Shown here in pieces: positions 31,656 to 34,133 of a stretch of DNA of 64,000 nucleotides. The notes below the pieces were generated by a model. That model made no database searches, was not told the DNA's origin, and saw nothing but the letters and a program-made list of their open reading frames with translations. The translations under genes and the position numbers were made by a program. Location: assembly GCA_036567785.1 (NCBI GenBank), contig DATCTV010000061.1, positions 1-64,000 on the forward strand. The letters run 5' to 3'. The DNA is from Desulfomonilia bacterium (GTDB taxonomy: Bacteria; Desulfobacterota; Desulfomonilia; UBA1062). The stretch's first letter is position 1; each line of letters begins with the position of its first letter.

Positions 31656-32690
31656 ATGAGACGCATACTTTTATTGCTTGTGCTGTCGGTGGCCATTATG
31701 GCCTTGTTCCTGTGTGCTTGTTCAGCATCACCTGCTGATGACGAAGCCGCGAGTGGTGCCGGCGGGGAGACTTCAACGGATGCCCCGCAAATAATGACCC
31801 ATATCAGGTATCTTGCAATAAACGCCGGCAATGCTTCTCCGCAATTCGGCTGCTGGGAATACAAGCTCTGCCGGGCCTGCGATGTAAAGAGCCTGCGTGA
31901 TTATATTGCATACTGGAAGCCTGACATCATCATGCTCTCCGAAATCTATTCACAGGATCAGCTTACCGGTTCAGCCATGAACGGGCCGGTTCTTCCTCCG
32001 GGGTATACTGGAATATGCGGAATGAGCCGTGACCGCTATACCGGCGCACCTGCTGCGTTCGATGCTGACGGCGCATCTCATGAACATGAATGCATAGCCT
32101 GGAAGGAATCACGCCTGAGCTATGTAGAGGGCAGCGCAGAATCAGCCTGCGGACGCAACGACGAATACGGCATGAAGAACTGCAACTATGATTTTACGGG
32201 CTTTGGTGTGACGCTCCTGCTTTCGGTTTCAGAAGGGCTGAATGAAGAGATAACCGCGGTGGCGGTTCATCCCGATTCAGGCAAAAAGGAATGCCGCAAA
32301 GAGGAAATAGCCCGCTATTGGAGCCTCCTTGCAGGCAAAGGTAAAACCGTAATAGGTGGAGACTGGAATACCGACAAGGACGCCGAACTTCAGGTTCCTG
32401 AAGATTTTCTGGTAAATTATTCAAAGGGACAGCACTGGGATATCATTTTACATGAGGATGAATACAGCGCCGAATACGTGTTAGGGATAAAAAGAAAGCT
32501 GGACCATGCCTTTTCAAATTTTGGAATTCCCTGCACGAACTGCGGTCCCTATTACGGAACGCCGAGCCTTCCTTTCGGATCCGCCCTGGGGGGAAATGAC
32601 GGGCACCCCCGGGCTGACGGGGGGCAGGGCATGGATCACAGACAGATCCTGGCCGACATCAAATTTGCGGTCGATTCAGGTGCCGAATAA
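31656..32690 (+). CDS. Endonuclease/exonuclease/phosphatase-family lipoprotein
   Basis: A 344-residue secreted protein of the DNase I-like fold. After a lipoprotein signal (FLCAC) comes NAGN, then IIMLSEI with the metal-binding Glu, GGDWNTD with Asp/Asn, and KLDHAF with DHRQIL carrying the catalytic His-containing ends. It may cleave nucleic acid or phosphodiesters outside the cytoplasm. Start 31656 has GGGAG ten bases upstream; ATG 31647 gives only three extra residues. Several cysteines in the middle suggest disulfides. Confidence 0.78.
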   Translation: MRRILLLLVLSVAIMALFLCACSASPADDEAASGAGGETSTDAPQIMTHIRYLAINAGNASPQFGCWEYKLCRACDVKSLRDYIAYWKPDIIMLSEIYSQDQLTGSAMNGPVLPPGYTGICGMSRDRYTGAPAAFDADGASHEHECIAWKESRLSYVEGSAESACGRNDEYGMKNCNYDFTGFGVTLLLSVSEGLNEEITAVAVHPDSGKKECRKEEIARYWSLLAGKGKTVIGGDWNTDKDAELQVPEDFLVNYSKGQHWDIILHEDEYSAEYVLGIKRKLDHAFSNFGIPCTNCGPYYGTPSLPFGSALGGNDGHPRADGGQGMDHRQILADIKFAVDSGAE

Positions 32691-32777
32691 ATCATATCCG
32701 CTCCGGCGAAGGGGACATATCTGAAAAAGGCTTGAGACAGGCTTTTAGGCAGGATATGGTTCATCTGGGCTGCAGAG

Positions 32778-33533
32778 TCATCTCTTGCGGCCGGCGTCAA
32801 AAAGCGCGCCCTGGATGATCGGGGTTATGTACATGCCCTGATCCATATTGAAATAGGTCCCTTTTGAGCATTTGCCGGTTTTCCTGAATTTTCTTGCATG
32901 TTCTTCCGACCGGAAGAATACAGAGAGCCTTCAGAATGAATCTATTATGCTTGGCTCATCGAGCTTCTCAAAATCAACCAAGGGTGCAAATACAACGGGT
33001 GCTGAATTTTCCGTAAGAACTCTGTAATTCATTGAGCTGTCAACTTCCAGTACGAGAGGCTCTTTACAGCATGCGCATTCGGTTTCAATCGTTACCGTAA
33101 GTTCCTTGTTTTTCAAAAGCCCTTGCACGAAGGGCGCCGCGAGCGCGTCTACCGCTCAGGCGGCGTAGATGCGCTCTCCCGTGCTGAAGGTGAGCCTGTG
33201 CGGCGTCTTTTCCGCTGTGACCGGGTATGCCCATATCACATCACCATCCGGATTCCTGAACAGGAAGGTCATATGGCGTTCCAGTTCAAGGAGTATCTCG
33301 TTTACTCTTGCCGTTCCGATGCCTAATGACTGCGAGAAATATTCAGGCGTCAGCGGTCTGCCTTTTTCCGCAATGCCGGTTACTGCCAGATCACGCACCC
33401 TGTGATGATCATCCGTCATGAAGTCGAGCCTGAAGGCGTTTTCCTTGGCAGCACCGCCCACCTGCGCCTTCCACGCAAAGCCGGGTACGCGCAGGATATA
33501 TTTCCAGATACCGAGAAGAAGTGCGTCCTTCAT
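32778..33533 (-). CDS. MerB-like organomercurial lyase homologue with two predicted selenocysteines
   Basis: One frame of 252 codons contains in-frame TGA at 33156-33158 and 32931-32933. Read as selenocysteine these are Sec126 and Sec201 of a 251-residue protein. RIYAA-U-AVDAL aligns with MerB YAW-Cys96-ALDTL, including the Asp99 match (Asp129), and DSF-U-RLSVFFRS aligns with SF-Cys159-CHVHFFAS. The N-terminal helices (about 40-90) fit MerB's winged helix. The ATG follows GGAGG. Each TGA is followed by a SECIS-like hairpin. MerB cleaves carbon-mercury bonds using these residues. It is third after hisF and a secreted protein. The alternative, a double-nonsense pseudogene, is less likely because both stops hit catalytic sites and the frame is otherwise intact. 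Confidence 0.85.
32901..32918 (-). promoter_or_regulatory. SECIS-like hairpin after the second UGA
   Basis: In the mRNA, 12 bases after the UGA (32931-32933) comes a 7-bp perfect stem UUCUUCC/GGAAGAA with apical loop GGUC. The loop starts 19 bases after the UGA and begins with G, as required for SelB recognition in bacterial SECIS models (16-37 bases, G in the first two loop positions). Confidence 0.7.
33119..33135 (-). promoter_or_regulatory. SECIS-like hairpin after the first UGA
   Basis: In the mRNA, 20 bases after the UGA (33156-33158) comes a 6-bp stem GCCCUU/AAGGGC with loop CGUGC. The loop starts 26 bases after the UGA and has G at its second position. An overlapping larger inverted repeat (GAGCGC.../...GCGCTC) brackets the UGA itself. 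Confidence 0.6.
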
Positions 33534-33563
33534 GTCTGACCTCCGGATCGGTTCAAGGGGTGA

Positions 33564-34133
33564 CTAATCGGCAGGGATCTCATACCAGATATCTGAAATG
33601 AAACCCCTGGCATCCGGTTTGAACAGCTGTTTCGATATTGCAGGAACTTTTCCTGAACAGCGCCACTCATAAACGGTTGTACGTCCTGTCACATAAGCCG
33701 GTATGAAATCCTGATCCGGATTGTTCTGGCAATAATCCCTCATGGCCGCATCCGGCGTTTTTCTCATATCAGCTTTTTCCATGCATGGAAGATTTGCGCC
33801 TACCATGCAGGCAAAGACTTTTCTGTCCATGCAGCGCCAGAATGTGGTCTGTTTTATGTAATCGGAAGGCGTGTCGCCGCCAAGTTTCATGACCTTGCGC
33901 ATTCCCGTTACCATTGATTCGGGCACCTTTTCCCCCTGATATCTCTTATCTGGAGCATCTATGGTGCCGGCACAGTTGCAATAGCTGAACGGGTCAGTGT
34001 AGATGTTGTTTTCAGGCATTTTCGGGGAAGAATGTTTCGGGGCAGCCGGACCGTATGCATATGCAGCGCCTGACCCTGAAATGATTACCATGGCCAAAAC
34101 AGCTAAGGGCATTATTATCTTTTTCATCATCAT
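33564..34133 (-). CDS. Secreted cysteine-containing protein of unknown function
   Basis: A 189-residue protein with a clear signal peptide ([16 protein letters not shown] then [10 protein letters not shown]), predicted to be periplasmic. Several Cys pairs follow, including [29 protein letters not shown] and YEWRC. Related uncharacterised proteins occur in other Proteobacteria, but I know no function. The ATG overlaps the hisF stop (ATGA), so it is translationally coupled to hisF, and the MerB-like gene begins 30 bases after it. ATG at 34130 or 34127 are equivalent starts. Confidence 0.8.

Follow-up and report, generated by a model that had tools for sequence, protein, structure and literature searches.

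The locus described here raises the question of whether a bacterial gene can specify an enzyme of the MerB organomercurial lyase family with selenocysteine (Sec) at both of its catalytic positions. The gene lies in the window – the 64,000-nucleotide stretch of a Desulfomonilia genome analysed here – and two UGA codons interrupt its reading frame. In MerB, Cys96 and Cys159 are essential residues (numbering of PMC8261052) that act as metal ligands, and Asp99 is involved in the reaction and in metal release (PMC4525700, PMC8261052). The model quoted in a recent review (PMC13188914) describes the bacterial SECIS element as a hairpin with a loop of 3-9 nt, a stem of 4-16 bp and a G in the first two loop bases, located 16-37 nt from the UGA and having a minimum free energy of at most -7.5 kcal/mol.

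A MerB-like gene with two in-frame UGA codons

Inspection of open reading frames finds the frame of the window gene open across UGA1 and UGA2 (Table 1), and the GGAGG preceding its ATG is presumably the ribosome-binding site. When read through, the protein matches Pfam MerB (PF03243) with an E-value of 9.8e-15 and 55.1 bits, against a curated cut-off of 27, and in the family profile the UGA1 and UGA2 columns align with the catalytic cysteines of solved MerBs. The gene thus has the character expected of a selenoprotein gene, with in-frame UGAs opposite cysteines of homologues and homology running on beyond them. It departs from the canonical Cys96/Asp99/Cys159 triad in that the Asp99 place is still Asp, while both catalytic cysteines are UGA. 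A third conserved cysteine (TGC or TGT) is still Cys in 39 of the 40 genes whose two catalytic places are UGA, so UGA is restricted to the catalytic pair. A structure predicted with the window protein and one relative as input is of modest confidence (mean pLDDT 60.8), and its 11 PDB matches with E <= 0.001 are MerBs without exception (TM-score 0.43-0.45 by query length, rmsd 9-11).

Table 1. Features of the MerB-like gene and its RNA elements (window coordinates)
Feature	Position	Strand	Description
MerB-like gene with two in-frame UGAs	32778..33533	-	ATG at 33533 to TGA at 32778; 251 residues, counting both UGAs as Sec
GGAGG	33540..33544	-	6 nt 5' of the ATG; read directly from the sequence
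UGA1	33156..33158	-	At the MerB Cys96 place; aligned with Cys of 3f2g, 1s6l and 5c17
SECIS-like hairpin 1	33119..33135	-	GCCCUU-CGUGC-AAGGGC; 6 bp, loop CGUGC, 26 nt between UGA1 and loop
UGA2	32931..32933	-	At the MerB Cys159 place; same family-profile alignment
SECIS-like hairpin 2	32901..32918	-	UUCUUCC-GGUC-GGAAGAA; 7 bp, loop GGUC, 19 nt between UGA2 and loop
Terminal UGA stop	32778..32780	-	Without SECIS-like hairpin

Homologues and phylogeny

The first relatives found with two UGAs at the same places comprise four close ones, of the same class, and one distant one; a two-UGA relative is present in a Chloroflexi MAG (JACRMI010000075.1, locus L007). Scanned with Pfam MerB, 395 genomes of the phylum to which the window belongs, taken from a larger group, gave 59 MerB places in 49 genomes, a count that is too low because the scan missed the window's own gene. 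Two UGAs are present in 35 of these 59, one in 7, a UAA in 1 and none in 16, so that most of these genes would be cut short by gene callers that treat UGA as a stop. The aligned set comprises 40 UU genes, in which both catalytic places are UGA (window gene included), five CU genes, with Cys at the first place and UGA at the second, and 15 CC genes, with two Cys; the reverse order, UGA then Cys, does not occur in it. Two of the 59 scan places (L026 and L030) are not profile hits and so lie outside the alignment, three loci (L045, L067 and L069) are outside the tree and inside the site counts, and L072-L076 duplicate other loci. In L067 and L069 the two-UGA gene is split over two frames, through a frameshift or an assembly error, and was entered as pieces.

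A search of 301 genomes of the L007 phylum yielded 23 with a match and four further UU genes. Besides L007's own there are 27 places, of which 17 were examined, comprising all 12 with a UGA and five of the 15 without, and the Cys rows of this later set are therefore partial; L007 itself is counted in the first set, though a member of the later-searched phylum. Because L007 is labelled Chloroflexota and none of the genomes of its phylum is among the 395, we infer that its phylum differs from that of the window, and two-UGA MerB-like genes thus appear to come from two bacterial phyla. A search of viral contigs gave no relative, and one of plasmids gave five distant matches, at less than 30% identity.

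In the tree the UU rows form two clades, A (13 rows, including the window gene) and B (27 rows). The UU label needs two changes on this tree, and the starred branches force two, which fits two origins of the UU state, with long-branch warnings attached to the tree; one gain and one loss may explain the pattern alternatively. Two near-identical MerB-like genes from different genera, L051 and L029, differ in having UGA against UGC at the second catalytic place; Cys and Sec may have been exchanged recently, or one sequence may contain an error.

Relation to known lyases and to mercury metabolism

The closest described counterpart is SaoL (NF040728), a MerB-like organometallic lyase that, like the window gene, combines a MerB domain with selenoprotein character. 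Two rows scoring above the SaoL cut-off (L018 and L023, both CU) have Sec at the Cys159 place and Cys at the Cys96 place, whereas the window gene has UGA at both and scores 47.8 bits against a SaoL cut-off of 140. Within the available text of a 2026 review, SaoL is listed with one Sec (motif CU) and is the sole MerB-like selenoprotein in the table (PMC13188914); a 2022 table, also available in part, has one MerB-like selenoprotein (PMC9312934). Canonical MerBs (NF009710 and NF033555; 1s6l, 3f0o, 3f2g and 5c17) share the domain, the fold and the catalytic Asp99 with the window gene, which differs in having UGA for both catalytic cysteines and scores only 51.8 bits with NF009710 (cut-off 193) and 45.3 bits with NF033555 (cut-off 200). 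Among the matches listed for literature on Sec, selenoproteins, MerB, SaoL and alkylmercury lyase, no title or abstract describes a double-Sec MerB; the primary SaoL papers fall outside this comparison, and the double-Sec MerB is therefore regarded as new relative to the single-Sec SaoL provisionally.

It is possible, if on balance somewhat doubtful, that the protein is a MerB-fold binder or lyase of a metal or metalloid whose substrate is something other than organomercury. SaoL bears the name organometallic lyase, the UU genes have no recognisable mer gene cluster next to them, and MerA exceeds its curated cut-off in only two of 33 carrier genomes, leaving 31 with none above it. The scarcity of MerA suggests that the lyase may work without mercuric reductase; weaker matches reach 413 bits against the cut-off of 454, so divergent MerAs are possible in carriers, some of whose genomes are incomplete. 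Position 99 is Glu in all 27 clade B rows, which favours another substrate, but it is Asp in all 13 rows of clade A, to which the window gene belongs.

The second point in favour of mercury is an enrichment of the mercury-methylation gene hgcA, found above cut-off in 19 of 30 UU carriers versus 95 of 365 other genomes (Fisher p 4.6e-5). The enrichment comes mainly from clade B (17/24), with clade A at 5/10 (p 0.13, weak), and is not significant when stratified by family (odds ratio 2.9, z 1.6), a test from which nearly all of the 79 genomes missing from the hgcA listing were left out. The 30 carriers include the window genome (found by its own protein), which has no hgcA match, and the split-gene genomes G400 and G412; G097 and G116, with hgcA fragments below the cut-off, were counted as lacking the gene. 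The hgcA link is a lead rather than a result. In a large survey in which MerB homologues were checked for Cys96, Asp99 and Cys159, no MerB-only genome was reported to encode HgcAB (PMC8261052); the Cys-based outcome differs from the frequency of hgcA among the UU carriers here.

The neighbourhood of 40 loci, most with a few kb of flank, contains no widely conserved gene. A regulator-like gene lies upstream in three loci (L002, L061 and L062), and other shared genes occur in two loci only, mostly from close relatives. This regulator has 149 residues and, judged from its sequence, is MarR-like; it is encoded 38-77 nt ahead of the aligned region, in the same orientation, and perhaps controls the lyase in these three loci. 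In the window, a gene at 33564-34133 on the minus strand, the same strand as the MerB-like gene, ends 30 nt ahead of it; its Cys-containing product carries what reads as a signal peptide, matches nothing in Pfam and has no relatives at the other UU loci.

Hairpins following the two UGA codons

The preliminary description had placed a SECIS-like hairpin after each UGA of the MerB-like gene, with a G in the first two loop positions and a spacing within 16-37 nt, and had seen none after the final UGA. Both hairpins were recovered with the offsets and loops given there (CGUGC at 26 nt and GGUC at 19 nt), and no hairpin of the bacterial SECIS type follows the stop at 32780-32778. The two elements conform to the loop, stem, G-position and spacing rules of the bacterial model, although the bare stems, at -7.4 kcal/mol each, fall 0.1 short of the -7.5 limit; the 45-nt folds reach -16.8 and -12.0. 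The presence of two elements with differing loops and spacings in one gene is unlike that model. The GGUC loop of hairpin 2 resembles the E. coli formate dehydrogenase SECIS.

Hairpin 2 stands out from dinucleotide shuffles by its stability (z -2.30 for 55 nt and -2.04 for 45 nt), while hairpin 1 is not exceptional (z +0.13 and -0.40, respectively), and the case was therefore turned to comparative tests. Under a synonymous-codon null, with the protein fixed and codons drawn from local usage, the order is reversed, with p = 0.02 for hairpin 1 and p = 0.29 for hairpin 2, the latter because the peptide FFRSEE by itself tends to encode the stem. An Rfam scan of 32600-33700 gave mir-2450 as its sole match, with an E-value of 0.51 and far under the gathering score.

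Hairpins track UGA codons across homologues

At site 1 the loop lies 26 nt from the codon in clade A and 17 nt from it in clade B; at site 2 the distance is 19 nt in both clades. A hairpin was scored when a stem of at least 5 bp with a G in the first two loop bases was present at the clade offset. In the first set such hairpins follow 42/42 UGA codons at site 1 and 41/47 at site 2, versus 0/20 and 2/15 Cys codons; in the L007-phylum set they follow 4/4 and 12/12 UGA codons versus 1/13 and 0/5 Cys codons, the rows being related and some of them near-copies, so that the rows do not count as independent events. The first set had already supplied the offsets when the second was retrieved, although a single fixed-offset script was used to score the two. 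When the site-2 register is shifted by 1, 2, 3 or 6 nt in either direction, the number of hairpins drops from 53/59 to 0/59 in each case. At an energy of -6.5 kcal/mol or better, a hairpin accompanies 69 of 80 UGA sites in the 40 genes versus 508 of 6571 other codon positions, and none of 12 terminal UGA stops has one reaching -4. The hairpins track UGA rather than Cys codons; a lack of conservation in homologues was an outcome named in advance as fatal to the SECIS assignment, and instead the stems recur at the same offsets and are mostly missing beside Cys codons.

The exceptions are few. The six UGA rows without the +19 hairpin at site 2 are a broken copy and the five CU rows, in which a different or a very weak hairpin is present, while the two site-2 Cys rows with a hairpin (L019 and L064) have the loops GCUC and GCGA. 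A hairpin at +33 outscores the +19 hairpin in L099. The Cys/UGA gene L086 keeps the clade B site-1 stem beside a Cys codon, with its loop changed from GGUC to GAUC, and the stem may be either a remnant of the Sec state or a forerunner of it.

Constraint and covariation at the RNA level

The hairpins could also be inactive by-products of the conserved protein motifs PFVQG and FF-R/W-SEEH, with Sec inserted via other signals, which we consider very improbable. The motifs alone do permit the stems, as the result for hairpin 2 of the window under the synonymous null illustrates, and p < 0.05 is likewise obtained for four of the 15 Cys rows at site 2. The same test is passed, however, by 29/42 UGA rows versus 0/20 Cys rows at site 1 and by 26/47 UGA rows at site 2, and Cys homologues differ at the motif residues and mostly lack the hairpins.

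Base-pairing provides a second argument against protein motifs as the cause. In clade A, 90.9% of site-2 cells are paired (22/500 shuffles as high), with five double-changed cells (3/500 shuffles) and a covariation score reached in 22/500; in clade B, 98.9% are paired, and neither the six double-changed cells nor the score is reached in any of 500 shuffles. How many pairs have changed at site 2, and how many pair types occur there, is not unusual: these numbers are reached in 483 and 500 of 500 shuffles in clade A and in 66 and 66 of 500 in clade B. In clade A the loop-closing pair 22-27 is U-A in eight rows and C-G in five, with no mismatches; Trp-TGG occurs with Ser-TCA in 8/8 and Arg-CGG with Ser-TCG in 5/5, so that the Ser codon switches with the preceding codon and the pair is preserved. 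We read the tree as showing at least two such switches. In clade B, pair 16-33 is C-G in 17 rows, U-A in four, U-G in three and other in two, and pair 17-32 is U-A in 24 and G-C in two. The two G-C rows are the sisters L048 and L054, in which both members of the pair have changed, replacing Phe by Cys and Glu by Ala; a double amino-acid change thus preserves an RNA pair.

Site 2 therefore shows the compensatory changes that the preliminary description had suggested looking for. Site 1 varies too little for the same approach: the clade B stems are 100% paired and nearly invariant, the clade A score does not rise above shuffles (103/500), and covariation cannot test stems so nearly invariant. 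Taken as a whole, the earlier proposal of SECIS elements for the two Sec codons is upheld, chiefly by the comparison of homologues.

Selection beyond the UGA codons and selenocysteine machinery

Still less credible is the view that the UGAs are real stops within a decaying MerB pseudogene, or the product of an assembly error. It accounts for two in-frame stops and for the failure of the whole-genome Pfam scan to report the window's own genome, but the same two UGAs are present in 40 genes of many genera and in four found later, and hairpins go with UGA. Synonymous and non-synonymous codon differences, summed over five close pairs, number 69/43 in the part upstream of UGA1, 54/47 from UGA1 to UGA2 and 40/18 downstream of UGA2, which argues, as a coarse test, that selection on the protein continues beyond them.

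The window genome (3.96 Mb, 97% complete) encodes SelA (500 bits), SelB (359 bits), SelD (378 bits) and a tRNA-Sec with anticodon UCA, and the L007 genome encodes SelB (345 bits). Among the relatives searched, tRNA-Sec is over cut-off in 55/60 and SelB in 52/60, so their mere presence does not discriminate. The selD gene of the window genome (G000:C27:68217-69131, L078) has one in-frame UGA of its own, and its product likely contains Sec. Host-wide reassignment of UGA, for example to Trp, making SECIS elements unnecessary, would also leave the frame open but is scarcely credible, given that homologues have Cys rather than Trp at both places, that UGA terminates 21 of the 48 stop-to-stop frames of at least 250 codons in the window, and that the genome has the full Sec machinery.

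Discussion

The product of the gene is very probably an organomercurial-lyase-like enzyme with the MerB fold and with Sec instead of Cys at the catalytic positions 96 and 159, each UGA being recoded by its own SECIS. Sec insertion at both UGAs and the mercury chemistry of the double-Sec protein are predictions made from genome sequences. SelB together with Sec-tRNA(UCA) would bind the apical loops CGUGC and GGUC and deliver Sec at UGA1 and UGA2, respectively, and the last UGA, having no hairpin, would terminate translation. In the protein, the two selenolates would bind the metal of an organomercurial, or of another organometal, the Asp may help to protonate the carbon leaving group, and the metal would then pass to other ligands, a step suggested by the small number of carriers with MerA over the cut-off; if MerA is absent, Hg(II) would presumably go to thiols, sulphide or selenide. 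Selenols are more acidic than thiols and bind soft metals more tightly, so a UU enzyme should bind organomercurials more strongly, perhaps with slower release.

A broader proposal can be put forward tentatively, at slightly less than even confidence: double-Sec MerBs may have arisen twice and may constitute a widespread, MerA-independent organomercury-cleaving system of anaerobes, often accompanied by hgcA, in which paired selenolates retain the metal and accelerate protonolysis of the carbon-metal bond. If this is true, double-Sec MerBs would have been overlooked by surveys that end the gene at its first UGA or make Cys96 and Cys159 a requirement. With hgcA over its cut-off in 19/30 carriers and no MerA over its cut-off in 31/33, the breakdown of methylmercury by methylators becomes directly testable, and the natural CC, CU and UU homologues offer a direct comparison of the contribution of each selenium to an enzyme of mercury detoxification in which selenium seems to have taken the place of sulphur at the two metal-binding residues.
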